64,000 bases of DNA, taken from a virus. Shown here one piece after another: positions 8,263 to 54,427 of the stretch; within the stretch, counting starts at the first letter, position 1; every line of letters begins with the position of its first letter. The position numbers and the translations under genes are program-made. Below the pieces are notes generated by a model that was not told the DNA's origin, made no database searches, and was given only the letters and a program-made list of their open reading frames with translations. The stretch is from the IMG/VR virus record IMGVR_UViG_3300025430_001199, positions 35,020 to 99,019 of that record; one strand, written 5' to 3'.

Positions 8263-8265
8263 GCA

Positions 8266-9660
8266 ATGATTATTCAAGGTGTAACCCTAACCAACATTAG
8301 CGTAAATGATGGCTCGTTTAATTCAAACGGTGCCTTACTCTACATAGACATAGGCAATGCCGCTAGTTACTCAGGTAGCGGAACAACCTATACAGATTTG
8401 TCTGGCAATGCTAACAACGGCACTAGTGCAGGCAGTCCAACATATAGTAGTACTTACAACGGTTTGATTAATCTAAATGGCGGCGGGTCGCAGTATGTTG
8501 CTACTGCTACCGCCAAGTATAATCAAACTTACACAGGTAAGACTGTGTTTGTTGCGGCAAGACTGAGCGGCCCCATAACTGCCGGAACTTATCGTTGCCT
8601 TTTTGGCACAGCCAGCGGCACAAGAAACTTTAACACTTATCTATATTGCCCAAGTACTGGTGTTTATCAAATACACTACAGCGCAAACGGTGGTGGCGGC
8701 TTATCTAGCAATATACCTGTAACTGTTGGGCAATGGTTTATCATCGCTGTTACCCATTCGCTAGACGGAACTGTTTCATATTATTTTAATGGAAAACTTG
8801 TGAGCACTAATACAGGCGTTACATTCAATCAATGGAGCAGTAACGGAAACGAAAACATAGGTGCCGGCGATAACTATTGGCTCGGTGATATTGCCCTGTG
8901 TGCCGTCTACGGTCGTTGCCTAAGTGCTAACGAAATACAGCAAAACTACAATGCTATATCTCATAGATACGATCTTGACATTGTTACAACTAACCTATTG
9001 GCCAACTACGATCCTATTGCTTATGTTGGTGCAGGTAACTTAGGAGATCTAAGTACCAATAATCGTACACTAACACTTTACAATACTCCAACTACAGCCA
9101 AGGTTAATAATGCCACAGTCCTAGCGTTCAACGGAACCAATCAGTGGGCTATAGATACAGCAGGGTATGGCACACTATTAAACACCTCAGCAGGATGGAC
9201 CTATGATGTATGGGCTCGTCCTAACTCTGTAGCAACAGGATCGTTGCTTGTAGAATACAGTAACAGCACAGCTAACAGCGGATGGCAAGATAGTCAACTG
9301 GCATTTGTCAGTAATAAGATTAACGGTGGAGTATTTGATGGTGCTACCAATGCTTATATTACAGGCCCAACTTACTCAGCCGCTATTTGGTATCATATTG
9401 TATTAACATACGACGGTGTTAATAAAACTACACTTTACATAAATGGTGTGAGCCAAGGTACTACTACAAGCACTAAAGGAAATCCATCACCAGCTACATA
9501 TCTATCTTTAGCTAAGAGCGATACTACCTCATTATATCTAGGTGGTAGTACCAACTACTTTGCTGGACAAATTGGAGCATATAAGATGTACACTAGAGCA
9601 TTAACAGCACAAGAAGTCTCACAGAATTTTCAAGCACTAAGAAATAGATTTAATGTATAA
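8266..9660 (+). CDS. Tail adhesin with two LamG/concanavalin-like domains
   Basis: 464 aa. Two tandem domains of about 220 residues (roughly 15-235 and 240-464) each show the LamG-like pattern: a DLSGNxNNGT or DLSTNNRTLTLY start, a WYHIVLTYDG...YINGV core (FIIAVTHSLDG...YFNGK in copy one), and a closing Y-R-L-xx-E-xxQN motif (YGRCLSANEIQQNY, YTRALTAQEVSQNF). Such domains bind glycans. Genes at 19936 and 20680 encode single copies of the same fold, so the cluster holds at least four. The ATG follows the preceding stop by 3 nt. Confidence 0.8.
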   Translation: MIIQGVTLTNISVNDGSFNSNGALLYIDIGNAASYSGSGTTYTDLSGNANNGTSAGSPTYSSTYNGLINLNGGGSQYVATATAKYNQTYTGKTVFVAARLSGPITAGTYRCLFGTASGTRNFNTYLYCPSTGVYQIHYSANGGGGLSSNIPVTVGQWFIIAVTHSLDGTVSYYFNGKLVSTNTGVTFNQWSSNGNENIGAGDNYWLGDIALCAVYGRCLSANEIQQNYNAISHRYDLDIVTTNLLANYDPIAYVGAGNLGDLSTNNRTLTLYNTPTTAKVNNATVLAFNGTNQWAIDTAGYGTLLNTSAGWTYDVWARPNSVATGSLLVEYSNSTANSGWQDSQLAFVSNKINGGVFDGATNAYITGPTYSAAIWYHIVLTYDGVNKTTLYINGVSQGTTTSTKGNPSPATYLSLAKSDTTSLYLGGSTNYFAGQIGAYKMYTRALTAQEVSQNFQALRNRFNV

Positions 9661-9661
9661 C

Positions 9662-9669
9662 GGTAAATA
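9662..9669 (+). promoter_or_regulatory. Late-type promoter box (weak match)
   Basis: GGTAAATA in the short gap before the 1742-residue fibre gene, 20 nt from its ATG. Matches the last six bases of the late-type boxes. Confidence 0.35.
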
Positions 9670-9689
9670 TAGAAAATAGGAATAAAATA

Positions 9690-12600
9690 ATGTCAGTATT
9701 AAACTTTCCAAGTAGCCCTTCAGTTGGACAACAATATACAGGTGATAATGAAGTAACTTACATCTTCGATGGTGTGAAATGGGAAGGTTATAGCCCCGTA
9801 CTATCCTCTGCTACAAATAGCATTAGCAACAATGGATACATTGTACAGGTCAATGGCAGCGGAAATCTTGTTATTCCTGTTGGTGCTACTATCATTGACG
9901 AAGCTGGCAATCCTGTTTTAACCAGTGGAGGCAGCGGTGCCCAAGGTACTACAGGTGCTCAAGGTATACACGGCGCTCAAGGCACCACCGGCTCAACAGG
10001 TGCTCAAGGAACTGCTGGATTCAACGGCAATACAGGTGTACAAGGTACTACAGGTGTTCAAGGAACTATTGGATCTACAGGAGCCCAAGGTACAACTGGA
10101 AATACTGGCGTACAAGGTGCTACTGGTATAGCAACTACCATTGTTGGCTCAGTGGCTAACAGCGCAAGTTTGCCCCCTAGCAGTACCCTTGGTTCTAGTT
10201 ATATTGATGAAGGTAATGGCGACTTATATGTATGGACTGGCACTGGATTTACCAATGTTGGTCAAATCGTAGGACCTAGCGGTGCTCAGGGTACTACAGG
10301 TGTTCAAGGTACAGCTGGTAGTAATGGCGCACAAGGAACTGCTGGCACTAATGGTCAGGGTGTGCCCACAGGCGGAACTGCTGGACAAGTTCTTATCAAG
10401 ATTGATAGTACAGATTATAATACACAATGGATTACACGCTCGTTTTCTGGATACGCTACAACTAGCACATTGGTCAACGGCGCTTTCACCGCCACATTAG
10501 ACACATACGGTAATTTTGTAGTTCCTGGTGTAATAACAAACAACAATCCAACTGGCACTGGGGTTGCTGTAGCCCCTAACTATCCCGGCCAAGGTGCGAT
10601 CCTTTCCAATTTTAGTGGTAATCAAGAATTCTTTGTTCAAGACGACGGCGCTTATGTACAGACTAGTGTCAACAATAGTGGAACCGTTTATAATCAATGG
10701 ATATTTGGCCTAGACGGTGTATTAAATCTGCCTAGCACCGTAGGTGATATTAAACGAGATGGTGTAAGCGTATTAGGTGGTGGCGGAGGTTCTGGTGGAC
10801 CAGTCAACCAGCTGACTAGTGGTACCGCAGTTGTAAGTTTAGATACCAACGGTACACTTAAGACTAGATCTCCAAACTTAGAAATCAAAGTAGGTGCTAG
10901 TACGGCTCCATACTGGGTAGCAGAGTACGGCGGACTCAGCGCCGCAGCCAGCGCATTGAGCGATTATGTCTATGGAACTGGCGCAGTCTACGACAGCAAA
11001 GGCAATCTATATATTATAGGTACAGCAACCGGTGGTGGTAGTACTGCCGATAGTTTAATGTTAAAGTATGATCCTGAAGGTAACTTGTTATGGCACAAGA
11101 CTTGGAAAGATCCTGTTAACGGCGGAAACTGCGGTGCTACCAATGTGGCTATTGCCATAGACAGTAACGATCGCATCTACTGGGTGGCCAATGATTGGAC
11201 TGCTGGTGGTATGTGGTGTGGTTATATGGACACAGACGGTAATCTTGGTCTTAATGGAACAGCACAGCAAGTACTAGGTGTTAACTATCTTAATCCCACA
11301 GATATCGCTGTTGATAACTTGGGTAACTTCTATCTTTCTGGATACAATAACGGCGGCAGCGGTTTTGGTGGTTATGGAATCCCGACTGTTGTCAAAGTCT
11401 CCAGCACTGGGACCGTGGCATGGAGTAGTACGGTAACTCCTATTGCTTCTGATTCTAGTACCAGTACAGGTATATATCGTGCGGTTACTGTTGATCCAGA
11501 CACAGGATCAGTATGGGCCATTGGTGATTATAATGACGGCGGTAGTCATTGGGCTATGTTGAGCAAATGGGATAGTTCAGGTGTAAATCAGTGGACCAAT
11601 AAACTAGTCACATCCTCGGGCGACATTGGCGATGCGGTAGTGTTTAATAGCGGCTATGTTTATACCGTGGTCAATGACGGCACTGAAAATCTTGTACGAG
11701 TTTCTAAATTAAATCCAGACGGAACACTGGTATGGGCTTCGGCATTAGCGCAAGGCACTGGTTCAAAAGGCTACGATCTAAGTTTTGATTTAAACGGTGA
11801 TGTTTATCTAACTGGTATATATTCTGGTCTTGGTTTATGGGTAACTAAGTTAAATCATACAACTGGCACTTTAGTATATTCTCGAACCTTAACTACTGTA
11901 GACGGAGCAGAGATACTCGATGGTCAAGGTGATCCTATAGTTGGACACAGAGCGGGTGACATCTATAGAGATAGAATAGCTGTAGTAGCTTCTACTCTGG
12001 ACAGTCTCACACAGCCAGGAACAAGCAATAACAGAACCATCTTGGCACAACTACCACTTGATGGCAGTATTGCTGGAACATTTAGCAATGTTACGCTGGC
12101 CGATATAACCAGTAGCATATCTGGTATTAGTTCAACTGGTACTTATACTATAACAACTTTGTCTTGGACTACAGGGACTTACGGAACAAGTATTGGCACA
12201 TTGAGTCAGTTGGGTTCTAGTGTTGTTACACTGCTTGGTCAGATGAGCAGTCAAGTACTTAATATCAGTACAGGCACAAGATCTTCAAATTGGAACTTTG
12301 GTTCTGATGGTGGATTGGTATTCCCAGATGGCACTATACAAAACTCTGCTTGGAACATTGGTATACAATCATCATTGGTAAATGGCGCTTACACATTATT
12401 CTTGGGTACTGATGGTACTATAAACTTACCTAACTCTACTACTGGCGAACCTTTAATCCAATCAACTGCTACGATACAAATACTTGCCAATACATCTTAC
12501 TTTACATTTGGAACAGATGGCACATTAACATTCCCAGATAATACTGTACAGCATACTGCCTATACTGGATCGACTCATTGGAGTGTTACTCCGTCAGTAG

Positions 12601-14918
12601 CAGGTTGCCCAATATACACAGAACTAACTCCAGATCACTTCCAGGCGTACACACAGCAAAGTCACTTGGCGTTCAATAATGATGGCTCTTGGCATCTAGG
12701 CAGTAACTACAACGGCAACGGACTCTATAGTAATGATAATACCGCAACATTGTATTCTAATCTTGGTGATGTTGTTATTAGAACAGGCGATAGTTCAAAA
12801 TATTTTACATTTGGTCCTGATGGTAGTTTAACACTTCCGCAAACACCGGGCGGTGCCGCAGTTATCTCTGGCGGTGCTAATGGAGTACAGGTTACAGCAA
12901 ACAGTCATACTTGGGAATTCGGTCCTAATGGTGCTTTGGTATTCCCAGATACTACACAACAAACTACAGCCTATATTCCAGGCAGTGGCGGCGTAAGTAT
13001 CAACTCAGGTACTAACTTTGCCTCCATCTCAACAACTACCTTTACCATTGAAACAGGTAAGAACAGTTATTGGATCGCACAGTTTGGTGACTTGATGAAT
13101 AATAACGAAACAGACTATGGTAACTCGGTGATCTATGATAGCCAAGGTAATGTCATTGTTGCTGTTACTGATTTTACAGAATCAGCTAGTTATCCTCAAC
13201 CTTTGGTTGTAAAATATGATCCACAAGGTAATATTTTATGGAAACAACTGGTTGGAATTATAGGTAGTGCTGAAAGTCTCGATGTTGACAGTTCGGACAA
13301 TATCTATTTGTTGATCAATGATTACGATGCTGTCACCAGTCGAGTATTTCAGCTAGATCCTACAGGTGCTTTAACAAATCAAATAGATGTTACAGGCACC
13401 GACGAGGACATGTATGACATCGTAGTTGATGGTAGCGGTAACTTTTATGTAACTGGTTATGGAACAAATACATCAACTAATCAACTTACTGTGTTCAAAG
13501 GTAACTTCAGTGGTATTAGTTGGCAACAAGGTATTAACTTTACCGCAGGACAAAACGATTATGGCTATAGTATCGCTCTTGATGGCGCTAGTCCTCCTAA
13601 TGTCTATGCGTTTGGGAATTCCGATGCCAATGGTAGTGAGTTAGTTAAATTAGATAACAATGGTAATGTATTGTGGTCTGTAGGTATAACTGGAGCAGGC
13701 GTATACGGCAACGCAGTTTCAGTTGATTCTGCCGGCAATAGTTACACGGTATCTGCATATGGAGATGATTACACTGCTGTTGTTGCCAAATACGATACTA
13801 ATGGTAATCTAGTCTGGCAAGTAGAAATGGCCTATGGAACACATGATCCTACAGAAATACAATTGGGCGATGACGGCTACTTGTATATCACAGGATTGAC
13901 CAATACTGGTCCGTATAATAAAGCTATTTGGGTTGCCAAAATGGACACCAATGGCAATCTACAATGGACCAACGCCCTTAGTAATTTCTTCAACTACGAG
14001 GCTTTCACGCAATGGTATTGGAATGGACACAAAGATATTGCTGTGCGTAATGGGATGTTTGCGATTACTGCGGCCACAGAAAATCCAGCAAACATAAACA
14101 CTTCAACTAGTACTGTACCTTATCAAATGATAATAGTACAGTTTCCAACAGATGGAACTTATGCCTCCCCTAGTTTTTCTACTGCCAAAGAGTATCAAGG
14201 CTATGCTTATTTTAATACTCCTTGGTTAGAATCAACTTCAACTGCGGCATTAACTCTTAACACAGCTACCTTTGTTACTGGTAATCCAGGATTTGCCACT
14301 GATGCTAGTACAGCCACCCTAGTGGCCAGTACTCTAACTGGTAATGTAACTGGTATAATATCCAGCCCTATTTGGCAGTTTAACAACAGCGGTAATATTG
14401 TGTTCCCAGATGGCACACAACAATCAACTGCTTATCCAGGAGAAGGTAGTTCAAACATTGGTGAATATCAAGGACTTACTTCATCCACTGGATCTTACTA
14501 TACACGGGTTGGAATAGCAATTAAAAATGCCAGCGGATATAACCGTGTTGTTGGATTGACAAATTCAGCACAGACTTGGTTGAGTCTTGCTGATGTAGCA
14601 AAACAATTAGGCATATATTCTGGATGGATCAGTGGTATGATTATTGACTATAACGCATTTAATGTTGGTCTTGGTAATAATGGAAATATGGTGGGACAAA
14701 TCATCATGGCTGTGAATTATAATAATATGTCAGTGACTCATTTAGAAACAGCCATATCGACCAACAGCAGTGACAATTATGTATTTTCTAATCTAAGTTT
14801 GTGGGAACTCGGTGAAGGTTCATTACAGGCTATTAGAACTGATAATCTCTCTGGGCAACAACTAGATATCATATGGACAGCAAAAGTCTTTATCAACCCA
14901 AGCGAAAGTTTTTGCTAA
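9690..14918 (+). CDS. Giant tail-fibre protein: collagen-like repeats and two beta-propeller-like segments
   Basis: 1742 aa. The N terminus (FPSSPSVGQQY...FDGVKWEGY) matches the gene at 5236. Collagen-like triplets occupy about residues 83-147 and 198-224, followed by a GGTAGQVL-type linker common in phage fibres. Two long segments, about 393-807 and 1117-1503, consist of repeating D-x-x-GN-x-Y-V/I-x-G and KxDxxGNxxW units, the signature of SBBP/NHL-like beta-propellers. FPDGTxQxTAY motifs punctuate the regions between and after them. The extreme length, repeats and position argue for a side or long tail fibre. Which part touches the host cannot be told from sequence. Confidence 0.75.
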   Translation: MSVLNFPSSPSVGQQYTGDNEVTYIFDGVKWEGYSPVLSSATNSISNNGYIVQVNGSGNLVIPVGATIIDEAGNPVLTSGGSGAQGTTGAQGIHGAQGTTGSTGAQGTAGFNGNTGVQGTTGVQGTIGSTGAQGTTGNTGVQGATGIATTIVGSVANSASLPPSSTLGSSYIDEGNGDLYVWTGTGFTNVGQIVGPSGAQGTTGVQGTAGSNGAQGTAGTNGQGVPTGGTAGQVLIKIDSTDYNTQWITRSFSGYATTSTLVNGAFTATLDTYGNFVVPGVITNNNPTGTGVAVAPNYPGQGAILSNFSGNQEFFVQDDGAYVQTSVNNSGTVYNQWIFGLDGVLNLPSTVGDIKRDGVSVLGGGGGSGGPVNQLTSGTAVVSLDTNGTLKTRSPNLEIKVGASTAPYWVAEYGGLSAAASALSDYVYGTGAVYDSKGNLYIIGTATGGGSTADSLMLKYDPEGNLLWHKTWKDPVNGGNCGATNVAIAIDSNDRIYWVANDWTAGGMWCGYMDTDGNLGLNGTAQQVLGVNYLNPTDIAVDNLGNFYLSGYNNGGSGFGGYGIPTVVKVSSTGTVAWSSTVTPIASDSSTSTGIYRAVTVDPDTGSVWAIGDYNDGGSHWAMLSKWDSSGVNQWTNKLVTSSGDIGDAVVFNSGYVYTVVNDGTENLVRVSKLNPDGTLVWASALAQGTGSKGYDLSFDLNGDVYLTGIYSGLGLWVTKLNHTTGTLVYSRTLTTVDGAEILDGQGDPIVGHRAGDIYRDRIAVVASTLDSLTQPGTSNNRTILAQLPLDGSIAGTFSNVTLADITSSISGISSTGTYTITTLSWTTGTYGTSIGTLSQLGSSVVTLLGQMSSQVLNISTGTRSSNWNFGSDGGLVFPDGTIQNSAWNIGIQSSLVNGAYTLFLGTDGTINLPNSTTGEPLIQSTATIQILANTSYFTFGTDGTLTFPDNTVQHTAYTGSTHWSVTPSVAGCPIYTELTPDHFQAYTQQSHLAFNNDGSWHLGSNYNGNGLYSNDNTATLYSNLGDVVIRTGDSSKYFTFGPDGSLTLPQTPGGAAVISGGANGVQVTANSHTWEFGPNGALVFPDTTQQTTAYIPGSGGVSINSGTNFASISTTTFTIETGKNSYWIAQFGDLMNNNETDYGNSVIYDSQGNVIVAVTDFTESASYPQPLVVKYDPQGNILWKQLVGIIGSAESLDVDSSDNIYLLINDYDAVTSRVFQLDPTGALTNQIDVTGTDEDMYDIVVDGSGNFYVTGYGTNTSTNQLTVFKGNFSGISWQQGINFTAGQNDYGYSIALDGASPPNVYAFGNSDANGSELVKLDNNGNVLWSVGITGAGVYGNAVSVDSAGNSYTVSAYGDDYTAVVAKYDTNGNLVWQVEMAYGTHDPTEIQLGDDGYLYITGLTNTGPYNKAIWVAKMDTNGNLQWTNALSNFFNYEAFTQWYWNGHKDIAVRNGMFAITAATENPANINTSTSTVPYQMIIVQFPTDGTYASPSFSTAKEYQGYAYFNTPWLESTSTAALTLNTATFVTGNPGFATDASTATLVASTLTGNVTGIISSPIWQFNNSGNIVFPDGTQQSTAYPGEGSSNIGEYQGLTSSTGSYYTRVGIAIKNASGYNRVVGLTNSAQTWLSLADVAKQLGIYSGWISGMIIDYNAFNVGLGNNGNMVGQIIMAVNYNNMSVTHLETAISTNSSDNYVFSNLSLWELGEGSLQAIRTDNLSGQQLDIIWTAKVFINPSESFC

Positions 14919-14937
14919 TTAAAACTGGAAATAAACA

Positions 14938-17900
14938 ATGACAACATTTTACAAAAGAATAACTGGATCAAAAATACAAGGTAATGCTTCTTCGCTGACA
15001 GAACAAGCAGGTACACTAGTTATTAATGCGGATAATACAGTACACATACACGATGGTACTACTGTGGGTGGTAATCCTATAGGTGGAGGTGGTGCCGCAA
15101 ATAAATTAACATCATCAACTTATGCTGTAGTATTAGATAGTAGCGGTGTGTTAAACTTATCTACAGCCAGTACAATTCTAGGACAAGGCACAGATCCCAA
15201 TGTGTATATTGAGACAGTTAGTGGCGGCACAACAAGCGTTTGGACATTTAGCACCAGTGGTCAACTAACACTACCAGGTGCTACTCCTATCATTAATGGT
15301 AGCGGCACAGGCACCAATGTTACTATTATAGCGCAAAGCACAGCAACAACTAGCACCTGGGTATTTGGCGCAGATGGATCACTAGTTTTACCTGGACCAG
15401 CAGTAGGTACAACAAGTTATAGCAGAATTAAAACTGATGGGGCTTTCTTAAATCTTGATGTACAATACGGAAGCCTTGACAATGTTTATGGCGGTGCTCG
15501 TGTAGGAACTAATAGTACTGATCCGTTTGATATCATAACAGATTTCAACGGTGCTCATAACACTTGGAGATTTGGCGCAGATGGTAGTGTATCCTTGCCT
15601 AATCAATCTACACTATCTGATGGTAATGGCAATCTATCGATCACGTCTCCGAACACTGCGTCCATTACTGTATCAACTACGGTAGCATCTTGGGCTAACT
15701 TCTTATCCGATCAATCAAATAATCAACCATTCGTAGTTCAGGATTGCCAGTTTGACAGTCTGGGCAATGTTTATGCCACATTGATTGATGCTAATACCGG
15801 TACCAATACCAGTACTTTTACTACAGGTGTGGTCAAATATAACAATGTCGGTGAATCTATTTGGTTTCAACAAATATCAGGACCTTTGTCGCTTATTACC
15901 TACGGCTTGGCTGTGGATCAAAACAACGATGTTTATATTAATCTACTCGACGGCTCCACTGCCAATACTGTTACCAACATTGTAAAACTCAGCGGTTCTA
16001 CTGGAGGATTGATTTGGGCCAAACAACTCAGCGATGTAAATGATTGTGGTTATAATGCCTTGATTGGCCCAGATAATAATCTAGTTGTTAGCGGTACTTG
16101 GAATAACTCAGGTAGTGTTAATAATTTTGCGGCAAAAATTAATTCAACCAATGGTGATGTGATTTGGCAAAAGGTCTTCCTTGATCCTTCTAACAACGAT
16201 TATGATACCGGTATGGCCATTGATAACCTTGGCAACATTACCATAAGCGGTACAAGTTTTCCAAGCGGTTTTGGCAGTGCTATAACTCTTGATACAAATG
16301 GTAATCCTGTGTCCGGTGTTGTGTTTGCCAGTACAGGAACCCAATCAATAGAAATCACTGATGCTATTCACGACAGTCAAGGTAACTTGTATGTTACTGG
16401 CGCGGCCTATAATAATAGCAATGTTATGGCAGGTATGCTGGCTAAAATAGATCCTGCCGGCAATCAACTATGGGCATATCAAATAGGTCAAGGCGCCGGA
16501 TGTATAGATTTAGGATTGAGTTTAACCGTAGATCCCAGTGACAATGTTTATGTAGTTGGCATTACTGGTACCAGTAGTTTTATTACCAGCCTTGGCAGTT
16601 TTAGTTCATCCGGAACAGAATTATGGCAGTATTGGTTTAATACTCCAGGAAACGGTGGTACCGTGCCTGGTACTTTCCTAACCGGAGAGTTTTTCAGTGG
16701 CGGTGGTGGCGAATTTGGTAGTAATATAAGTTACCATAATGGTATGTTGGCGCTGGGAGTTATTGCCAGTGGCGGATCATCAGATTATGCTTATGTATTA
16801 AAAGTGCCATCGGATGGTAGTCCGGTGAATTTTGGTGGAGATATGTTGCCAATCTACTCAACAGCCAGCAATTGGACAGCAACATCAATCACTTTACAAA
16901 CTTCCCCTGTTCCTGGATATGTGCTTACTGCTACCATTACCACAGGCACATTGACCATAGTGTCAACCAGTACATTGTCTGATACTGTATGGCAAAGTCC
17001 ACCCTATACTTATGATTACACATCTACTAACATTATATCACAACAAAGTTCTTGGTCCTTTGACACTACGGGAGCATTGAATTTACCAATATCAAATACT
17101 GGTGTTGGCGACGGATGGGGTGTAATACAAACGCTGAACGCTTATCCTGAATTGCTGGCCTACGGTGTTGATCATGGTGGCCCAGAATTAGACTGGATGA
17201 ATACCAGTACTTTAGCAGATTTTGGCAGTAGTACCGTGATGCGTAATGTTATGTACATTAACGGTGGCGGCCTGTATGTTGAGATGAACGCTAACAATGT
17301 ATCAGGGCATCCTCAACCTCATTGGAGTTTCAATCCAGATGGTACTACACAGTTCCCTCACTTTACTATCTCAACAGCCACAGGCACAACTGGCACAGTT
17401 CTAACATTAGATGGTAGTGGAGTAGCAAGTTGGCAAACTCCTATCGGTGGTACTAATAGCAACTTGTTGTCATCGTTTGGCACTGATCAGGGAGTTGGAT
17501 CAACCTATTCAACTGGCAATCCTGTATTGTTTACTAACGATGATATGCTTATTCGTACAGGTGGCACAGCGGCCGCCGGCAGTGGTGGATCTGGACAAAT
17601 GTATATTATGTCCGCCGAAGATATAACAATTGGCACAGCAACCGATCCAGCATCCTTAACTGATGCAACCAGTGGTGTTACTTGTGACGCAAAGGTATAT
17701 ATTCTTCCTGCTCATTCTAATGGTGGAGTGAGCTCCACCGTTTCAATTACAGCAGGTAGCAATACATTGTCAGTTGATTCCGTAGGCGGATTAACCTACA
17801 ATAGCAGTCCTATTGCCGGCGGATCTGCTACCACAAGTACATTGTATGATGCAACCAACACTTATAATGTCTACTTAGATACCAGTGGTAATTTGAATTT

Positions 17901-19932
17901 AAGTTTAACTGGTATTATACAAGGTAGTAATGCCGACACCGATGTATACATACAAGGTGGCAGTAACACTTGGCAGTTTAATGCCGGTGGGAATATAGTT
18001 TTCCCAGATATGTCAGCACAAGGTACTGCTTGGTTGGGTGCTGGTAGTTATGATATCAGCAACTTTAATAATAATGGAACTTTTACATTACCGTATAGTC
18101 AACTAAGTGGTGCTCCGACTAATGTAAGTGCATTTAGCAATGATGCTGGATACTTAACCAGTGCATTCAGTGGCAACTATAGTGACCTAAGTGGTGCTCC
18201 GACTAATGTAAGTGCATTTAGCAATGATGCTGGATATCTAACCAGTGCATTCAGTGGCAACTATAGTGACCTAAGTGGTGCACCAACTAATGTAAGTGCA
18301 TTTACCAATGATGCTGGATACTTAACCAGTGCATTCAGTGGAAACTATAGTGATCTAAGTGGACTACCAACATTGTTTAGTGGAAACTATAGTGACCTAA
18401 GTGGTGCTCCTACAAGTCTAAATGCTTTTAGTAATGATCCTGGATTTATTACAACTTGGTCTTTAGTTCAAGATAGTAATCCTACAATGTCCGGCACACT
18501 TAACCTAAACGGAAATAAGTTACAATCTGCTGTTACTGGACAATATGCGGCGTCAACCAATCATCCAGTAACTCTTGAAGCACAATACTCATACAATGCT
18601 ACTTCTTGGGAAATGACAGGTACCGGTCACGGTTATAGTAATGGTACTAATATTGCTACTACTGGTGGATCTGGTACAGGAATGACCGTTAATATCTATG
18701 TTTCGGGACCTGGCCAAGTTAACTCTATTCAAGTCAATCAACCAGGAACTGGTTATCAGAACGGTGATGTGATTGGTATAACCGGCGGTGACGGTACAGC
18801 AGTATTTGTCATACACAACTATAATTCGTTGAACAATGGTGCCACAGCCGATTGGACATTTGGTATTGATAATTTGTTGAATGGTGTTTTGACACTACCA
18901 GGTGGTTCAACCATTACTGCGCAGGATAATGGATTACAAACAGTTATTGCCAATGGTGTATCAAATATTAATGTAGATGGCGATGGTGGTAGAATAGTTT
19001 TAACTCCTAATACTAGTAGTAATCTTTCCTATATTTTTGCAAGTGAATTAACAATACCTGGTAGTATCATACCAAATGTTGATGCACAGTACGATCTAGG
19101 ATCTACTAGCACACGATTCCGTAGTGCTTATGTAGGCACCGGAAGTTTGTTCATCCAAGATATCACACTAAGGACCAATGCTGAACTTACTGTCGACAAT
19201 GGACTATTGAGCATCAACGGTATTTCAAGTTTCAAAGCAGGTAGCCTGTTGATTGCCAACAACACCTTGACTACTTTTGATACCACACTTGATATCAATC
19301 TAGGAGACCCAGGCGGTGGCGACACTGGTGGTATTAATGTTTATCGTAATATACATTCAGTATTCAACAACCTGTATGAAACTGGCGGACAAATCACCGC
19401 AGACACCAGTGTACAAGTAGGTCGTTTATTAATCAGCAATCAACCAGGTGATGCTAATGCTCCAGGTATTACAACTACAGATACTTCAGTAGACTTCAGT
19501 CTTGGTGTGTTGAATGATACCGGCAACCTGGTAATCAATCGCAATGTGATACGCAATGGCAACCACGGTGCTACCGATACAGTAACCAACTATTCTCCCG
19601 ATGTTCCTGTGGGCGTCAACACGCCGTATCAGATTTATGGCGGAACGGATAACAGCATCTTGGCTGTAGAACTGACAGTGATCCTACAATACGGCACTAC
19701 CAGTGATACTGATACCGAACTGACCAAACTGTTGGCAACCATGAATGCCGGTGGCACAGCCAATCTGGTAGTGTTGGGACAAAGCCTTACAACCACAGCA
19801 TTTGCTCCGGCTACCTACACAGCCGGGGTAGCAGGAGGTGTTTTAACTGTATCAGTCCAGACTGCGGCTGGCAGTTCTACTGCCTTCTATCGTTATCATG
19901 CCACAGAGTTTGGCGGTTACTTTGGAGCATAA
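14938..19932 (+). CDS. Giant tail-fibre protein with a propeller-like segment and 28-residue repeats
   Basis: 1664 aa. The N terminus includes LVINADNTVHIHDGTTVGG, a phage fibre motif. Residues about 243-634 form a third copy of the SBBP-like propeller segment seen twice in the preceding gene. Residues about 1056-1172 are a near-perfect 28-residue tandem repeat (YSDLSGAPTNVSAFSNDAGY type) known from many phage fibres. Near residue 1380 an AQYDLGSTSTRFRSAY motif appears, which in other fibres precedes the C-terminal tip domain. The AGGTG-like upstream sequence is poor but the ATG directly follows the previous gene. Confidence 0.75.
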   Translation: MTTFYKRITGSKIQGNASSLTEQAGTLVINADNTVHIHDGTTVGGNPIGGGGAANKLTSSTYAVVLDSSGVLNLSTASTILGQGTDPNVYIETVSGGTTSVWTFSTSGQLTLPGATPIINGSGTGTNVTIIAQSTATTSTWVFGADGSLVLPGPAVGTTSYSRIKTDGAFLNLDVQYGSLDNVYGGARVGTNSTDPFDIITDFNGAHNTWRFGADGSVSLPNQSTLSDGNGNLSITSPNTASITVSTTVASWANFLSDQSNNQPFVVQDCQFDSLGNVYATLIDANTGTNTSTFTTGVVKYNNVGESIWFQQISGPLSLITYGLAVDQNNDVYINLLDGSTANTVTNIVKLSGSTGGLIWAKQLSDVNDCGYNALIGPDNNLVVSGTWNNSGSVNNFAAKINSTNGDVIWQKVFLDPSNNDYDTGMAIDNLGNITISGTSFPSGFGSAITLDTNGNPVSGVVFASTGTQSIEITDAIHDSQGNLYVTGAAYNNSNVMAGMLAKIDPAGNQLWAYQIGQGAGCIDLGLSLTVDPSDNVYVVGITGTSSFITSLGSFSSSGTELWQYWFNTPGNGGTVPGTFLTGEFFSGGGGEFGSNISYHNGMLALGVIASGGSSDYAYVLKVPSDGSPVNFGGDMLPIYSTASNWTATSITLQTSPVPGYVLTATITTGTLTIVSTSTLSDTVWQSPPYTYDYTSTNIISQQSSWSFDTTGALNLPISNTGVGDGWGVIQTLNAYPELLAYGVDHGGPELDWMNTSTLADFGSSTVMRNVMYINGGGLYVEMNANNVSGHPQPHWSFNPDGTTQFPHFTISTATGTTGTVLTLDGSGVASWQTPIGGTNSNLLSSFGTDQGVGSTYSTGNPVLFTNDDMLIRTGGTAAAGSGGSGQMYIMSAEDITIGTATDPASLTDATSGVTCDAKVYILPAHSNGGVSSTVSITAGSNTLSVDSVGGLTYNSSPIAGGSATTSTLYDATNTYNVYLDTSGNLNLSLTGIIQGSNADTDVYIQGGSNTWQFNAGGNIVFPDMSAQGTAWLGAGSYDISNFNNNGTFTLPYSQLSGAPTNVSAFSNDAGYLTSAFSGNYSDLSGAPTNVSAFSNDAGYLTSAFSGNYSDLSGAPTNVSAFTNDAGYLTSAFSGNYSDLSGLPTLFSGNYSDLSGAPTSLNAFSNDPGFITTWSLVQDSNPTMSGTLNLNGNKLQSAVTGQYAASTNHPVTLEAQYSYNATSWEMTGTGHGYSNGTNIATTGGSGTGMTVNIYVSGPGQVNSIQVNQPGTGYQNGDVIGITGGDGTAVFVIHNYNSLNNGATADWTFGIDNLLNGVLTLPGGSTITAQDNGLQTVIANGVSNINVDGDGGRIVLTPNTSSNLSYIFASELTIPGSIIPNVDAQYDLGSTSTRFRSAYVGTGSLFIQDITLRTNAELTVDNGLLSINGISSFKAGSLLIANNTLTTFDTTLDINLGDPGGGDTGGINVYRNIHSVFNNLYETGGQITADTSVQVGRLLISNQPGDANAPGITTTDTSVDFSLGVLNDTGNLVINRNVIRNGNHGATDTVTNYSPDVPVGVNTPYQIYGGTDNSILAVELTVILQYGTTSDTDTELTKLLATMNAGGTANLVVLGQSLTTTAFAPATYTAGVAGGVLTVSVQTAAGSSTAFYRYHATEFGGYFGA
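18103..18453 (+). repeat. 84 bp tandem repeat in a tail-fibre gene
   Basis: Units begin with CTAAGTGG at 18103, 18187, 18271 and 18355 (exact 84 bp period), followed by a 42 bp half unit at 18397. Copies one to three are almost identical, so copy number can change by recombination. Confidence 0.9.
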
Positions 19933-19935
19933 TAT

Positions 19936-20679
19936 ATGTCACTATCAGCAGGCGTTATAATAAAACACGGAGTTCGTGTTAAGTCAGCCACTCTCAATGG
20001 TGGCGGCAGACTGGCTCAGGGCAATCTAGCATTATACCTAGATGCCAATAATCCTGCAAGTTATCCAGGCACAGGAAATACTTGGTATGATTTAAGCGGT
20101 CAAGGTAATGATGTCACTATGCAGGTAGCCAATGCCGGTGATATTACATATACACAATCCAACGGTGGATATTTTACTTTGGCCAATGACGGGTATTTTA
20201 ACAATCTATCTACTTCAAATCTCCCAACAGGACCAAATCCTTATACTCTAAGTGCTTGGGTACGCTGGCCATCGGGCAGTTGGCCCGGCACTGGTGGGAT
20301 TATGAGTATTGGTAGTGCATTTGGATCCCAAAATGATGTAAACGCATTTAGAACAAATGGTACTAATGGTTTTCTTAACTATTGGTGGGCCAATGATCTT
20401 CCTGCCACTTCAAATGTTAATGCCGCGGCTTGGCTTAATGCAGTGGCAACTTGGGATGGATACAATCGTTATATATATGTTAATGGTATATTGTATGCTG
20501 GTGGAGAAGCGGCAGGACTAAACACCAGCGACGGTACACTACAAGTTGGTATTACATATACTGGTGGTGGTGAAGGACTAAATGGCAATATAGGGCAAGC
20601 ATTGATTTATACTCGTGCGCTAACTGCCAGAGAAATTTATACTAACTATGTATATACAAAAGGAAGGTACGGAGTATAA
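19936..20679 (+). CDS. LamG-like tail adhesin
   Basis: 247 aa single-domain protein. It shows the same LamG-like pattern as the double-domain gene at 8266: LYLDANNPASYPGTG-TWYDLSGQGND near the start, AVATWDGYNRYIYVNGI in the core and IYTRALTAREIYTNY near the end. It begins 3 nt after the preceding fibre gene and is directly abutted by the paralogue at 20680. Likely a glycan-binding accessory tip or adhesin. No signal peptide. Confidence 0.8.
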   Translation: MSLSAGVIIKHGVRVKSATLNGGGRLAQGNLALYLDANNPASYPGTGNTWYDLSGQGNDVTMQVANAGDITYTQSNGGYFTLANDGYFNNLSTSNLPTGPNPYTLSAWVRWPSGSWPGTGGIMSIGSAFGSQNDVNAFRTNGTNGFLNYWWANDLPATSNVNAAAWLNAVATWDGYNRYIYVNGILYAGGEAAGLNTSDGTLQVGITYTGGGEGLNGNIGQALIYTRALTAREIYTNYVYTKGRYGV

Positions 20680-21504
20680 ATGTCAATAACAATACGATCA
20701 GCACAGACTATAGGCAACGGAGTTACTCTACAGGGTAATACTCCCATACCTCCATACATTGCCGACGGACTATTACTATATCTTGACAGTCGTATAGCCG
20801 CCAGTTGGCCAGGGTCAGGATCAACTTGGTATGACCTAAGCGGTCACGGAAATAACGCTACTTTCTATGCTAACCCTAGTGCTTTAGACAATAATGGAAC
20901 TATTATTAATGGCAATGTCTTAGATAGTTCAACAATGTCCACTGACGGCCAAGGTGATATCAGATTCAATGCGGCCACTTGGCAATATGCCGCATTACCT
21001 AATATAGGCACCAACATAATACAATGGACCGTTAACACTTGGTTCAATGCTGTAACTTGGCCCCCCAGTGGTCTATTGCCTCAAATATTTGGTGGAGAGT
21101 ATTTGGGTGGAGCACCAGGTATCAATACTGTTAACATGACCCTAACACCCTACAATGGTAGCGGAAGTGACAACTATATTCGAGCTGGATATTATGATGG
21201 CAATGGACCCGCTTGGCAGTTGACCAACGGATATGCTATCACTGCTGGTACTTGGTATAACATAGTAGGTACTTATGATGGCACCTATTTAAGATTATAT
21301 ATCAATGGTACCCTACAGGAAACTTCTGGCAATGTTGCTTCAACAACACTGGGCAGTTCATTAGGCTATCGTGTAGCTCGTCGTTGGGACGGACATGATA
21401 CTGTTGATGCTTATATTCCCGTGGTCATGTGCTACAATCGTGCGTTAACTGATCAGGAAGTTGCTCATAACTTTAACAGTTACAGATCAAGGTATGGAGT
21501 ATAA
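20680..21504 (+). CDS. LamG-like tail adhesin (paralogue)
   Basis: 274 aa. Clear paralogue of the preceding gene with no gap: LLLYLDSRIAASWPGSGSTW and YDLSGHGNNATF near the start, NIVGTYDGTYLRLYINGTLQ in the core and CYNRALTDQEVAHNF...SRYGV at the end. Both share a short N-terminal stretch containing GVTLQGN/GVRVKSA that recurs in the gene at 21508 (GVTLNSG). That shared leader may attach the different binding domains to one fibre position. Confidence 0.8.
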   Translation: MSITIRSAQTIGNGVTLQGNTPIPPYIADGLLLYLDSRIAASWPGSGSTWYDLSGHGNNATFYANPSALDNNGTIINGNVLDSSTMSTDGQGDIRFNAATWQYAALPNIGTNIIQWTVNTWFNAVTWPPSGLLPQIFGGEYLGGAPGINTVNMTLTPYNGSGSDNYIRAGYYDGNGPAWQLTNGYAITAGTWYNIVGTYDGTYLRLYINGTLQETSGNVASTTLGSSLGYRVARRWDGHDTVDAYIPVVMCYNRALTDQEVAHNFNSYRSRYGV

Positions 21505-45796: not shown

Positions 45797-45996
45797 TGGA
45801 ATCGCATAAAAGAACATTAGCAAGAAGTATCACATATAGACTTAGTGCTTGGATGTTGACAATTTTGTTATCTTATATGTATACAGGCAATCTTTCAGAA
45901 TCAACTGGATTTAGTACTTTCCTACATTTGATTCTTTCATTAGATTATTATATTCATGAAAGAATTTGGATGAAGATTAGTTGGGGTAAGATTTGA
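45796..45996 (+). CDS. DUF2061 membrane protein
   Basis: 66 aa. Pattern RTLARSITYRLSAWMLTILL, Y-T-G-N, and a C-terminal YYIHERIWMKISWG, the hallmark ends of DUF2061 proteins, which are predicted membrane proteins of proteobacteria and some phages. Function unknown. Its stop codon forms the first hairpin (TGAGA/TCTCA, 45994-46007) of the tmRNA region. Confidence 0.8.
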   Translation: MESHKRTLARSITYRLSAWMLTILLSYMYTGNLSESTGFSTFLHLILSLDYYIHERIWMKISWGKI

Positions 45997-46076
45997 GAGT
46001 AATCTCAATAGTAAGACTGTATGAAGTTGACAGAAAAGGATTCTGGACGCGGGTTCGACTCCCGCCAGGTCCACCA

Positions 46077-46166
46077 TAAACACATGTGGGTTTAAGTCCC
46101 AAGTGGTAGTGTTATAGACACATAGCGGCACAGCCGATACCTTTCAGATTTGAGTGTGTTTATGAT
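46077..46166 (+). other. Intervening segment of permuted tmRNA
   Basis: Joins the encoded CCA to the 5' end of the coding part and should be removed during maturation. Its ends pair as TAAACACA (46077-46084) with TGTGTTTA (46155-46162), extending the acceptor stem into a long hairpin that host processing nucleases could cut. It contains a small T-loop-like hairpin, TGGG-TTTAAGT-CCCA. Confidence 0.8.
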
Positions 46167-46275
46167 GGGCCTGACCTGGTTTTCGACAGGGTCAAGAGTA
46201 ATGAAATGGACAGTCCGGCAATGTAGAAGCCGTTAGGATTGGGGTGACCCGATCGAAGACACGCAAAAAGTAATC

Positions 46276-46308
46276 GCAAACGATTCACAATATTCCATGG
46301 CCGCTTGA
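46276..46308 (+). other. tmRNA tag reading frame
   Basis: Resume codon GCA at 46276 preceded by AAAAAGTAATC, like the E. coli resume site. Encodes ANDSQYSMAA then TGA (46306-46308). The E. coli tag is ANDENYALAA; the A-N-D start and final A-A are kept, while the penultimate Leu is Met. Confidence 0.93.
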
Positions 46309-46348
46309 GCCAAGGTGAGGTAACTATACCTTATTACCCAAAATAGTA

Positions 46349-46376
46349 GAAAGGGCCTTGACGGGCCCTTTCTTTT
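46349..46376 (+). terminator. Intrinsic terminator of the tmRNA
   Basis: GAAAGGGCC (46349-46357) pairs perfectly with GGCCCTTTC (46364-46372), loop TTGACG, then TTTTT. Confidence 0.92.
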
Positions 46377-47840: not shown

Positions 47841-48386
47841 ATGAAAACAATCGGCGATAAACTAGAACATTTCGTAGTTACAGGCGTTAAGCCAGGACAA
47901 CCAGAAGATGCTTTCTTCAACATTGATGAAACAAGTTTCCCAGGTAAGTGGAAGATCATTGCTTTCTATCCCAAGGATTTTACATTTGTATGCCCAACTG
48001 AAATTGTGGCCTATGACAAGTTGAATCAAGACTTCGAAGACCGCGATGCTGTATTGTTGACAGGTTCAACAGATAATGAGTTCTGTAAGATTGCTTGGCA
48101 AAAGAGCCACCCAGACTTGATCAATATCAAACACAATCAATTCGCTGATACACAGCGTGGTGAGTTGAGTTTGGCTGAACAACTTGGTGTATTCTTTGGT
48201 CCAGCAGGTGCGGCACTTCGCGCAACATTCATTGTTGATCCAGACAACACAATCCAACACGTTACCGTCAACAACTTGGATGTAGGTCGTAGCCCAGAAG
48301 AAACTTTGCGTATTCTTGACGCACTTCAAACTGGTGAACTTTGTGCTTGTAACCGTACCGTTGGTGGCGCAACTCTAGGAGCATAA
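47841..48386 (+). CDS. ahpC: Alkyl hydroperoxide reductase AhpC (2-Cys peroxiredoxin)
   Basis: 181 aa. Reduces H2O2, organic peroxides and peroxynitrite. Peroxidatic C51 lies in F-T-F-V-C-P-T-E; C168 and C170 in ELCACNR serve as resolving or shuttle cysteines. Length and C-terminal C-x-C match the AhpC that pairs with AhpD in mycobacteria and many beta- and gammaproteobacteria, not the AhpF-linked type. A strong ribosome site (AGGAGGA) suggests high expression. The ahpD gene follows after 1 nt. This is a rare gene in phages as far as I know. Confidence 0.95.
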   Translation: MKTIGDKLEHFVVTGVKPGQPEDAFFNIDETSFPGKWKIIAFYPKDFTFVCPTEIVAYDKLNQDFEDRDAVLLTGSTDNEFCKIAWQKSHPDLINIKHNQFADTQRGELSLAEQLGVFFGPAGAALRATFIVDPDNTIQHVTVNNLDVGRSPEETLRILDALQTGELCACNRTVGGATLGA

Positions 48387-48387
48387 T

Positions 48388-48894
48388 ATGGCATTCATTG
48401 ATTCAGTAAAAGGCGCATTGCCTGACTATGCTAAAGATGCTCGTTTGAACATTGATGCTGTATTGCTTCGTAGCACATTGGACAAGGATGTGGCTATGGG
48501 CTGTGCTGTAGCCGCTTTGGCTGCTACCGGCAACGGTAAGTTATTAGCTGTATTGTTAGCAGATGCTCCTGTATTTGCTGAGTCAGCAATGACTGCCGCA
48601 AGCATTATGGCAATGACAAACAGTTGGTACCCATATGTTGAAATGGCCGATGACGCAAACTTAACGGGTTTGCCTGCCCAACTGCGTATGAACGCCATCG
48701 CTACACACGGCGGCACAACTAAGAGCAATTTTGAAGCATTTAGTTTGGCCGCTAGTATTGTTGGAAAATGTGAGTTCTGCGTTAAAGCACACTACGAAAC
48801 ATTGAAGAAGGAAGGCTACTCTGTAGAAAACCTTCGTGACATTGGTCGTATTGCCGCAGTGATTAACAGCGTGGCTAAAGTATTGAATAGTTAA
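48388..48894 (+). CDS. ahpD: Alkylhydroperoxidase AhpD
   Basis: 168 aa. Reduces oxidised AhpC and has weak peroxidase activity. The catalytic C128-E-F-C131 with H135 (KCEFCVKAHYE) and upstream E116 match M. tuberculosis C130, C133, H137 and E118. It forms a tight two-gene operon with ahpC, so the phage brings both the peroxidase and its reductant. Electrons from dihydrolipoamide enzymes of the host would be needed. Confidence 0.95.
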   Translation: MAFIDSVKGALPDYAKDARLNIDAVLLRSTLDKDVAMGCAVAALAATGNGKLLAVLLADAPVFAESAMTAASIMAMTNSWYPYVEMADDANLTGLPAQLRMNAIATHGGTTKSNFEAFSLAASIVGKCEFCVKAHYETLKKEGYSVENLRDIGRIAAVINSVAKVLNS

Positions 48895-49719: not shown

Positions 49720-50673
49720 ATGAAGAAATCTCTATTAGTGGCTGCTTTGTTCAGTCTAGCAGGTTTGGCAACTGCCGGCGACAATGTTGAAGTCTATGGC
49801 AAGTTGAATGAATATGTAAATAGTTACAAACTTGGTACTGCAACTGCGGTTACACAAGGTTACAACGATAGCAGCCGTTTCGGTGTCCGAGGATCTGAAG
49901 ATTTGGGCGCTGGTTTGAAAGCAACTTTTATCGTTGAAACCAATCTTAACGCAGAAAATCCAGGCACTGCAAGTCACTCAACAACTACTGCTACTCCAAC
50001 AGCATTAGGTGATCGTGAAAGTCGTGTTGGTCTACGCAATGACTATTTTTCTGTTGATTTAGGTCACGGTAAACAAGTTATCGGTCGCACACTAGATAAC
50101 TACGATACATTCGGTAACTTTGACTTGTCAGCAACCAATGTTGTTCACAGTACACAAGGCCAACGATTGAGCAATGCAGTTTTCTTGACTGCTACTCCAA
50201 TTGCTGGTGTTACTGCACGTTTTGAACAAGCAGAAAGCAATACTACTGCAAAAGCAACTCAAGCATATGGCGTTGAAGTTGCTAAGTTCGGTGCTAATTT
50301 GTCTGTAAACCGTTTGGACAACTATGCTGGTAATGCAACTACACAAGTTGCAGGCAAGTACACATTTGCTCCTACTGGTACTACTGTTCTTGCTTTGTAT
50401 AGTAAAGATACAGTTGCTAATGTCAAATCAGTCGGCGAAACTGTTGGTGTAACACAAGTTGTTCCAGGTGTTAAAGCATTGAGCGTTTTGGCTACTTATG
50501 GTAAGAAAGACGACAAGAGCGTTGCTAACAACGACTTGAAGGCTTTTGCACTAGGTGCTAACTACAGCTTGAGCAAACGTACTACATTGCAAGCACGTTA
50601 CATCAAGGAAGACTTCAAGGTCGCTACTGGTGATGTTCGTGAAGTTGCAGTTGGTATTCAACACAACTTCTAA
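49720..50673 (+). CDS. Gram-negative outer-membrane porin
   Basis: 317 aa. Sec signal peptide MKKSLLVAALFSLAGLATA, then NVEVYGKLNEYV, SSRFGVRGSEDLGAGLKATF and GDRESRVGLRNDYFSVDLG, the strand pattern of trimeric general porins of Burkholderiales. Alternating strands continue to the end, and the last residue is Phe (VGIQHNF), the signal recognised by the outer-membrane assembly machinery. Its own promoter, leader hairpin, ribosome site and terminator suggest strong expression. It might replace the host's porins, alter permeability or mask a phage receptor. Temperate phage PA-2 encodes a porin (Lc), so there is precedent. Confidence 0.93.
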   Translation: MKKSLLVAALFSLAGLATAGDNVEVYGKLNEYVNSYKLGTATAVTQGYNDSSRFGVRGSEDLGAGLKATFIVETNLNAENPGTASHSTTTATPTALGDRESRVGLRNDYFSVDLGHGKQVIGRTLDNYDTFGNFDLSATNVVHSTQGQRLSNAVFLTATPIAGVTARFEQAESNTTAKATQAYGVEVAKFGANLSVNRLDNYAGNATTQVAGKYTFAPTGTTVLALYSKDTVANVKSVGETVGVTQVVPGVKALSVLATYGKKDDKSVANNDLKAFALGANYSLSKRTTLQARYIKEDFKVATGDVREVAVGIQHNF

Positions 50674-50778: not shown

Positions 50779-51168
50779 ATGACAATGCATCTACATCATC
50801 CTTCTCTTAGTCTTAATGGTAAGAAAAAGGGTAAAGTCAAATTCCGTAATGCTGAAGAAGCACGTAAGGCTCGTGAACTTGAAGCAAGTTGGAAAGAACT
50901 AGAGAAAAAGTGGAATGTAGAAGCCGAGGACAAGAAACGTCGCCGTGCTATGGACGCCGAACCTTTGGCATATAACTTGTCTACTCCTGTTGGTCGTACC
51001 ACTAGTAACGATCTACCTAGCAGAGTAACCCCGGGCGGCTCAACTGCCCCCGTTCACAAAGTATACACCGGTACTAAAGTATTGGGTGTGACTATTGTTC
51101 ATAAGAGTTGCCTTCAGCCAGTGTTCAATCAACAGGAAGCAATTGATGCGGCAAACATGCGTAGGTAA
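50779..51168 (+). CDS. Conserved T4-like phage protein, unknown
   Basis: 129 aa. The start MHLHHPSLSLNGKKKGKVKF, the helical ARKARELEASWKELEKKW and the C-terminal VYTGTKVLGVTIVHKSCLQPVFN then A-x2-MRR are a conserved set I associate with small proteins of aquatic T4-like phages, function unknown. An internal ATG at 50785 is an alternative start. It has its own promoter. Confidence 0.7.
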   Translation: MTMHLHHPSLSLNGKKKGKVKFRNAEEARKARELEASWKELEKKWNVEAEDKKRRRAMDAEPLAYNLSTPVGRTTSNDLPSRVTPGGSTAPVHKVYTGTKVLGVTIVHKSCLQPVFNQQEAIDAANMRR

Positions 51169-52056: not shown

Positions 52057-52807
52057 TAATTTTATCTATGTTTCTTCTGTAAATGGAGCAAGCAAACATT
52101 TTATTGCCACGCTGATTACATACCTAATAAATGATTTATCTCCTGATATAGACTACGAATCTCATAATACTTCTTTCAGTAATTTTGCCACTTACCACAA
52201 TGAGTTTGATAATATTTTAGATAATGTACATACAAGCAGAACAGTAAAATGGCCGCCTTGGAAAGAAATTAATTTTTCAAATACTGACACTTATAAATCT
52301 TTGGGATTTCCCGGTGAAGGTATACCGATGTATCAGGATATTATTTCAGATTTTCCTAATTTTAAAGTAGTGGTCATTACAGTAGATCCCGCAGACTATA
52401 AGACTGTTGAACTAAATCATTTTTGGAAGCAGGATCCTGCATTTTATCTTGATCAGCTTGGTATAGAAGTTATAGATCACGGTGTTTTAATCTCCCCTGA
52501 CCAAGCTTCAGAATATATTGATCAATATTTAGAAAAAGGTATTCCTGAATATTTTAAACTAACAGATCCGGATGCTTGTCAAAACTGGTATAAAAGACTA
52601 CCTACCAATATAAGGGAAAGATATTTTTTTATAAACTTTGCAGATATTATAAGTGACCCGGAAACGGTTATTTCTTCTCTTGAAAATATTACACAAAAAA
52701 CATTTGATGATAATATGAAAAAACGTTATTATCATTATGTTGATTTGCAAATAGAATATTATAAAAAATACTTGCCCTGGCACCCTATATTACAAAAAGG
52801 ACAGTAA
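52049..52807 (+). CDS. Putative P-loop sulfotransferase-like protein (paralogue)
   Basis: 252 aa. Blocks FIYVSSVNGASKHFIATLIT at the N terminus and YFFINFADIISDPETVISSL near residue 205 align with the preceding gene; both also share VxxITVxPxDxxxVxLNHxWKxDxxxYLxQ in the middle and YKxxxPWHPIL at the C terminus. A recent duplication in phage time that has diverged. The loop has lost the second Gly-Lys pattern (S-K-H for S-G-K), so activity may differ. Confidence 0.45.
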   Translation: MLDNFIYVSSVNGASKHFIATLITYLINDLSPDIDYESHNTSFSNFATYHNEFDNILDNVHTSRTVKWPPWKEINFSNTDTYKSLGFPGEGIPMYQDIISDFPNFKVVVITVDPADYKTVELNHFWKQDPAFYLDQLGIEVIDHGVLISPDQASEYIDQYLEKGIPEYFKLTDPDACQNWYKRLPTNIRERYFFINFADIISDPETVISSLENITQKTFDDNMKKRYYHYVDLQIEYYKKYLPWHPILQKGQ

Positions 52808-53214
52808 TGTCAACAAAAATAACATTAATCACCCCTCCAGATTTTTATGAAACTGGAAATCTTAGTATCCTACTAGCACATTTAACTGATGAAGAACAAA
52901 CAGCAGTAAGTGATTGGTTGGGTAAACACGACCTAAATGAAAATATTAACCTATATTTTTATGATAATGAAAATAACTCAACTTGGTTTTTGTATGCGGC
53001 CAACCGATGCGAATATAAGTATATTAACATTGATTATGTAAATTATATTACACAATCGTTAAGCGGACATGTACTAGGCAAACCTGGATTTTATTATCGA
53101 ACAGATAATAGCGCATTGGCCGAAGTATATGCTCACATCAATACAAGACGTGTTGATACTGTAGAACAATTTTTAGAAAGTATTTTCAGTGACAAACAAA
53201 CTACAAACAACTAA
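52807..53214 (+). CDS. Small protein, unknown
   Basis: 135 aa, acidic and aromatic (ENINLYFYDNENNSTWFLY). It starts in a TAATG overlap and overlaps the clpX start by 26 nt. The LITPPDFYETGNLSILL start suggests an alpha/beta fold, but no family is recognised. Its co-transcription with clpX could hint at an adaptor; there is no direct evidence. Confidence 0.55.
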   Translation: MSTKITLITPPDFYETGNLSILLAHLTDEEQTAVSDWLGKHDLNENINLYFYDNENNSTWFLYAANRCEYKYINIDYVNYITQSLSGHVLGKPGFYYRTDNSALAEVYAHINTRRVDTVEQFLESIFSDKQTTNN

Positions 53215-54427
53215 TCATTGCTGTGACTTTTGTGGAAAAAGCAAAGAAGATGTTGAAAAACTCATTGTGGGCGAACATGCCGCTATATGTAATGACTGTA
53301 TTACATTATGCGTTGATATTCTAGAAGATGAAAAATTTAAGAAGGTAGCAGACAGTACCAAACGTTTAAACCCTGCCGCTATTAAAGATTTCCTTGACGA
53401 ATATGTTATTGGGCAAGATGATGCTAAGATTAGTCTAAGTGTAGCAGTTAGCCAGCACTTTAAACGTATCAATAATCCTAGCAAAGACGTACAGTTAGAA
53501 AAGACCAATATGTTATTACTAGGTCCCACAGGCTGTGGTAAAACCATGTTGGTGCGTAAGATTGCCGAGTATTTGGATTTACCATTTGCTATCTGCGATG
53601 CTACTAGCATTACTGAAGCAGGATATGTGGGTGATGATGTAGAAAGTATCCTACTGCGGTTGCTTAATGCCAGCGATGGAGATGTTGAAAAAGCCCAACG
53701 TGGCATTGTTTATATTGACGAAATTGACAAGATTGCCCGTAAAGGCGAAAGTACAAGCATTACTCGAGATGTCAGCGGGGAAGGCGTACAACAAGCATTA
53801 CTTAAAATGATCGAAGGTAGTGTTATGCGAGTTCCATATAATGGAAAACGTAAACATCCTGGCAGTGACATGCAAGAACTCGATACTCGAGGTATTCTGT
53901 TTATCTGTGGCGGAGCCTTTGTAGGTTTGGATAAACTTATTGAAAAACGTCTTCATAGTCGTAGTGTAGGATTTCACAGTGATATTAAATCTAAAGACGA
54001 TGCCACAGATTATTACAGTTTAACCACAACCAAAGACATTATTCAATACGGATTTATTCCTGAGTTTATCGGTCGTTTTGGCCTAATGTCCAATGTAAGC
54101 GAGTTAAGCGTTGAAGATTTGGTCCGTGTACTAAAAGAACCCAAGAACAGTTTGATTAAACAATATCAATACATGTTTGAACTGGATGGTATTGAACTAC
54201 AGTTTGAGGAATCTGCCCTAACACAGATTGCTGAACGAGCCAAAGAACTTAAAACCAATGCTCGTGGATTGAAAAACATTATTGAAAAGACCCTGTTGCC
54301 TTACCAGTTTGATGCTATTAATCTGGCCAATAGGGGATTATCTAAAATCGTTATTAACAAAGACACTATTGCTGGAACTAGTCCAGCCATAATGATATTT
54401 GACAACGAGCAGGTTAAAAGCCAGTAG
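53189..54427 (+). CDS. clpX: ClpX, ATP-dependent unfoldase of the ClpXP protease
   Basis: 412 aa, close to full bacterial length (424 in E. coli), GTG start. Zinc-binding domain with C12/C15 and C34/C37; Walker A GPTGCGKT (112-119); GYVG pore loop (145-148); Walker B IVYIDE (173-178); R-K-H pore loop (221-223); ClpP-docking tripeptide V-G-F (260-262) where E. coli has I-G-F; sensor-2 NARG (357-360). All functional parts are kept, so it should unfold substrates and dock to the host ClpP; no clpP lies in this window. With the tmRNA 7 kb upstream it may redirect or support degradation of tagged proteins. Confidence 0.97.

Follow-up and report, generated by a model that had tools for sequence, protein, structure and literature searches.

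The linear IMG/VR record IMGVR_UViG_3300025430_001199 is 99,019 bases long, and its bases 35020–99019 were analysed in this study. This stretch of 64,000 nucleotides is called the window, and positions refer to it unless another contig is named. ARAGORN found a single tRNA/tmRNA gene in the whole window, a permuted tmRNA (tmRNA*) with the tag ANDSQYSMAA. The preliminary description had proposed a circularly permuted, two-piece tmRNA at this place and a search with permuted covariance models. Using cmscan, the permuted model RF04321 (tmRNA_permuted) matched positions 46015–46308 over its full length with 105 bits (E 2e-19, cut-off 47). The RF01850 model (beta_tmRNA) gave 95.3 bits (E 1e-27, cut-off 84), with a match extending to 46375. 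A better score of the one-piece model, named there as evidence against permutation, was not obtained, since RF00023 reached 38.6 bits, under its cut-off of 47. The features of the locus, all on the plus strand, are as follows.

46015–46076, plus strand: first-transcribed segment, giving the 3' piece of the mature RNA (3' strands of P2, T-arm, 3' strand of the acceptor, A73, and encoded CCA; RF04321 positions 1 onward)
46015–46020, plus strand: P2b 3' strand GACTGT, six pairs with 46210–46215 (94% paired in 27 phage sequences)
46039–46045, plus strand: P2a 3' strand, seven pairs with 46187–46193 (93% paired, with compensatory changes)
46049–46065, plus strand: T-arm GCGGG-TTCGACT-CCCGC with beta-type T-loop (T-stem 100% paired in 27 sequences)
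46066–46072, plus strand: acceptor 3' strand CAGGTCC, U70 at 46070, 7/7 pairs with 46167–46173
46077–46166, plus strand: intervening segment of 90 nt, presumably cut out on maturation
46167–46308, plus strand: 5' part of the large piece, from the acceptor 5' strand through the D-loop and P2 5' strands to the tag end (covariance-model match)
46276–46308, plus strand: resume codon GCA, tag frame ANDSQYSMAA, and stop TGA (ARAGORN, sequence)
46309–46347, plus strand: 3' part of the large piece, the post-tag region of the beta_tmRNA model (RF01850 match)
46348–46373, plus strand: intrinsic terminator, 3' of the tmRNA gene
52807–53214, plus strand: small protein overlapping clpX, with a predicted nucleoside-deoxyribosyltransferase-like fold (present in 79/80 loci)
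53189–54427, plus strand: phage clpX, 412 aa, about 6.9 kb downstream of the tmRNA (Pfam, motif counts)

The boundaries given in the preliminary description were exact: the CCA ends at 46076 and the 5' acceptor strand starts at 46167. Its resume site, tag frame, and terminator were all recovered. The acceptor helix GGGCCTG × CAGGTCC contains G3-U70 and is followed by A73 and the encoded CCA, so that the alanine identity set is complete. No sigma-70-like promoter was recognised upstream of the gene; therefore, the tmRNA may be carried on an upstream transcript. The Rfam search detected no riboswitch in the window.

Conservation of the fold was investigated with 27 distinct permuted tmRNAs, taken from contigs that also encode a relative of the window phage's ClpX. 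The acceptor helix, formed across the permuted halves, was 100% paired in these sequences, with C-G/G-C, C-G/A-T, and T-A/C-G/A-T changes, and G3-U70 was present in 27/27. P2a showed the compensatory changes C-G/T-A and A-T/G-C/T-A. Both P2 blocks, described earlier as forming only across the permuted halves, were thus present and covarying. When helix partners were re-dealt 1000–2000 times, the observed pairing of the acceptor, P2a, and P2b was never reached, which shows that the pairing is not due to chance. In the tags of this clade, the AND...AA frame was kept while the residues between varied, and the resume codon and stop were likewise conserved.

The predicted fold of the precursor (z −2.6) contained the acceptor, the T-arm, P2b, and an extra helix within the intervening segment. 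The extra helix (46077–46085 × 46154–46162, 9 bp) starts directly 3' of the CCA and stops four bases before the 5' acceptor; its median length in the clade was 11 bp. The same geometry with at least 8 bp occurred in 62/86 permuted genes of viruses and in two of Betaproteobacteria, so the helix is a general feature of the precursor; for the same reason, it was rejected as a phage invention. In L137 (102–577) and L197 (5797–6282), the tmRNA halves are separated by intervening segments of 174–183 nt, and the L137 segment seems to contain a short open frame. Taking the model matches, the ARAGORN call, and the covariation between halves together, the locus very probably encodes a working two-piece tmRNA, for which we infer processing, charging, tagging, and degradation of the tagged product.

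Two-piece tmRNAs are already known from phages. A two-piece tmRNA was reported in 2022 in methylophage Melnitz, together with 53 two-piece genes among 133 unique phage tmRNAs (PMC9004378). A pattern scan of IMG/VR viral contigs for permuted tmRNAs returned at least 120 stretches, of which ARAGORN classed the majority as permuted. Such genes are therefore not unusual in phages, contrary to what had been supposed from the window alone; the gene type is known, and its setting beside a phage clpX may be new. Permuted tmRNAs whose elbow is alpha-type, with T-loop GGCAGTG, occur in at least 120 viral contigs (L378–L497). ARAGORN recovered only 15/120 of these listed alpha-elbow genes, which means that surveys relying on ARAGORN underestimate the number of phage tmRNAs. 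BLAST of the window tmRNA against isolate phages returned short T-arm matches only, and one alpha-elbow viral tmRNA had no match in 50,697 isolate phage records. Melnitz and related pelagimyophages likewise carry a complete permuted ssrA, with no integrase reported for them (PMC9004378). The Melnitz gene is alpha-type with a glutamine riboswitch, whereas the window gene has a beta-type elbow, no Rfam riboswitch, and a downstream clpX.

The window gene shares with the betaproteobacterial two-piece tmRNA (RF01850) the model match, the TTCGACT T-loop, and the D-loop region GGTTTTCGACAGGG. However, its intervening segment is 90 nt, compared with 24 and 42 nt in the betaproteobacterial L318 and L319, and its body is closer to alpha-elbow phage tmRNAs. 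The window AhpC was at most 74% identical to proteins of the order of a Burkholderiales-titled genome, the sole order searched, which weakly hints at a phage host in that order. Permuted tmRNAs over the cut-off were found in 4/150 genomes of the order searched around this genome and in 52/58 Alphaproteobacteria. Given the 4/150, if the host belongs to that order, the two-piece gene probably did not come from the present host.

About 40% of the distinct clade tmRNAs are alpha-type in the elbow (T-loop GGCAGTG or a close variant), and the window gene is beta-type. The D-loop region of these alpha-type elbows is often AGGATCGATT, as in Alphaproteobacteria. An unknown class defined by the GGCAGTG T-loop, which about half of the related phage tmRNAs have, was rejected, because alphaproteobacterial tmRNAs share such a T-loop and D-loop. 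Elbow type requires eight changes on the ClpX tree, about equal to shuffled labels. The T-arm and acceptor strand of the window gene are identical to those of L172 (34/34), and the two bodies are 50% alike. The window flank and body match L160 at 92% and 77%, and L160 has the other, alpha-type elbow. L160 and L193 have tmRNA bodies 96% alike with ClpX 69% identical; the sister phages L163 and L165 have ClpX 93% identical with tmRNA bodies 46% alike. Since tmRNA similarity in these two pairs is at odds with ClpX identity, the cassette has been exchanged among phages at a fixed site. The elbow, alpha or beta, has apparently been exchanged between phages while the locus stayed in place; repeated convergence may be another source of the pattern. 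The earlier idea that this gene might reveal how permuted tmRNAs pass from one genome to another holds in part, for exchange from phage to phage.

The neighbourhood of the gene was investigated in 80 related loci. The order kept was NrdB, small genes, tmRNA, variable cargo, two conserved small genes, clpX, and exonuclease. The cargo between tmRNA and clpX turns over. An AhpC-like peroxiredoxin and the AhpD-like CMD protein that comes after it (47841–48894 in the window) occur at shifting positions in 19/80 loci, and a porin of Gram-negative type (Porin_4, 49720–50673) has relatives close to tmRNA and clpX in 11/80. A small basic protein of the function-unknown family phrog_27048 (50779–51168) lies upstream of clpX in 76/80 loci. 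The 52807–53214 protein was considered as an SspB adaptor and rejected, its best structural matches being nucleoside deoxyribosyltransferase-like. Elsewhere in the window, 2567–21504 holds very large collagen-like repetitive genes of 1742 and 1664 aa that probably encode tail fibres. Beyond the window, the record has several adjacent radical-SAM/SPASM proteins at 7971–14153 of L002, with sugar epimerases nearby in L003.

The phage ClpX has the zinc finger, AAA domain, Walker A/B motifs, GYVG and RKH pore loops, and the [ILV]GF ClpP-docking loop (as VGF). These motifs were intact in 79–80 of 80 viral relatives, with RKH in 73/80. The viral contigs contained 185 ClpX relatives. In a tree with 80 bacterial ClpX sequences, viral ClpX formed one group (SH-aLRT 100), and identity to the bacterial ClpX fetched was at most about 54%. 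An Acinetobacter 'phage' clpX match was left out; it sits in a tig-clpP-clpX block and is therefore probably bacterial DNA. Among 50 whole contigs bearing the viral ClpX clade, 39 had a permuted tmRNA over the cut-off, and some of the 11 others break off a short way upstream of clpX. Each of the 39 had its tmRNA upstream of clpX on the same strand, at a distance of 2.7–17.6 kb. ClpP was found in 8/42 ClpX contigs, including 5/5 contigs longer than 150 kb. SmpB was absent from all 42 records searched, the window record included, so host SmpB would be needed.

Other large phages combine parts of this set. Huge phages carry tmRNA and SmpB (PMC7162821); they are also large, and some have Clp proteins, but SmpB is reported there and none was found here. 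Sinorhizobium jumbo phage AP-J-162 also has ClpX and tmRNA, although that work related its clpX to replication and did not connect it with the tmRNA (PMC11242549). SspB of Pseudomonas phage pf16 is likewise phage-encoded and acts on the ssrA/ClpXP pathway (PMC5587285); pf16 has the adaptor without a tmRNA, whereas the window phage has a tmRNA with an unfoldase. Among ClpX-bearing large phages outside the lineage, the tmRNA was permuted in Phosso and one-piece in phage G, LR756511, and, as a borderline case, Lak-B2. Atu_ph07 and phi30-3 have clpX and gave no tmRNA match over the cut-off. No literature tying phage tmRNA to phage ClpX was found in a search mostly outside subscription journals.

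A ClpX-type unfolding machine normally destroys tmRNA-tagged proteins. The locus is probably a ribosome-rescue tag gene that uses host SmpB and is coupled to the phage unfoldase. According to sequence and covariation, a single precursor transcript would fold with its tRNA-like hairpin lengthened by the intervening-segment helix. As in known permuted tmRNAs, RNase P would cut before 46167, 3' processing would free the CCA at 46076, and the two mature pieces would stay joined by acceptor and P2 pairing. The G3-U70 site is present, and host alanyl-tRNA synthetase would charge the RNA through it. With host SmpB, the RNA would enter stalled ribosomes and add (A)ANDSQYSMAA to the stuck protein. The C-terminal MAA, similar to the ClpX-read LAA degron, would direct the product to ClpX, and phage ClpX with host or phage ClpP would degrade it. 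Ribosomes would thus be kept free and amino acids recycled during host mRNA breakdown.

The linkage makes phage ClpX as the partner of the phage tmRNA slightly favoured. Strong as this linkage is, it occurs in contigs of common descent with a shared gene order, and we therefore only infer a joint function. The MAA terminus, which is not LAA, counts against the coupling, and phage clpX may instead serve a different purpose, for example in turning over replication or virion proteins. There is an appreciable, though lesser, chance that the tmRNA rescues and tags while its proximity to clpX is simply inherited gene order, with tagged proteins passing to host ClpXP. The syntenic block from NrdB through tmRNA and clpX to exonuclease is common to the clpX carriers, making them one lineage; full clpX was present in only 1/50 other viral contigs, picked solely by the permuted-tmRNA pattern, and the isolates Atu_ph07 and phi30-3 also fit inherited order. 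Against it, the genes between tmRNA and clpX turn over and the spacing varies, and dissimilar tmRNAs replace one another at one site, as if the slot were reserved for a tmRNA.

A decoy role, in which the RNA would titrate away the SmpB of the host or block its trans-translation, has a precedent, since a form from phage DS6A without a tag frame inhibits endogenous tmRNA in E. coli (PMC11915505). It is improbable here, because the clade conserves the tag frame, resume codon, stop, and AA end and keeps G3-U70, A73, and CCA intact, all of them needless for a decoy. Least probable, to the point of being hardly credible, is that the gene is a piece of captured host DNA or a chimera of the assembly and does nothing for the phage. 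Porin and AhpC/AhpD genes of host-like character do lie nearby; however, the helices are maintained by compensatory change, and the same order recurs in many contigs of other samples (L124 identical, the others at 62–86% ClpX identity), by which this explanation is already contradicted.

Coupling to the phage unfoldase extends to a broader and more tentative reading, which we regard as possible: this phage group may have its own tag-and-destroy pathway, consisting of a swappable two-piece tmRNA, the viral ClpX clade, and viral ClpP in large genomes, with only SmpB and the ribosome taken from the host, and with alpha and beta elbows exchanged, perhaps to match the hosts' SmpB. The tmRNA locus is kept near viral ClpX across 62–100% ClpX identity, which gives phage tmRNAs a concrete, testable role; the candidate is controlled breakdown of tagged proteins in infection. 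The mosaic tmRNAs suggest that the permuted form travels between phages as a cassette whose elbow looks exchangeable, and they make the spread of the two-piece tmRNA directly testable.
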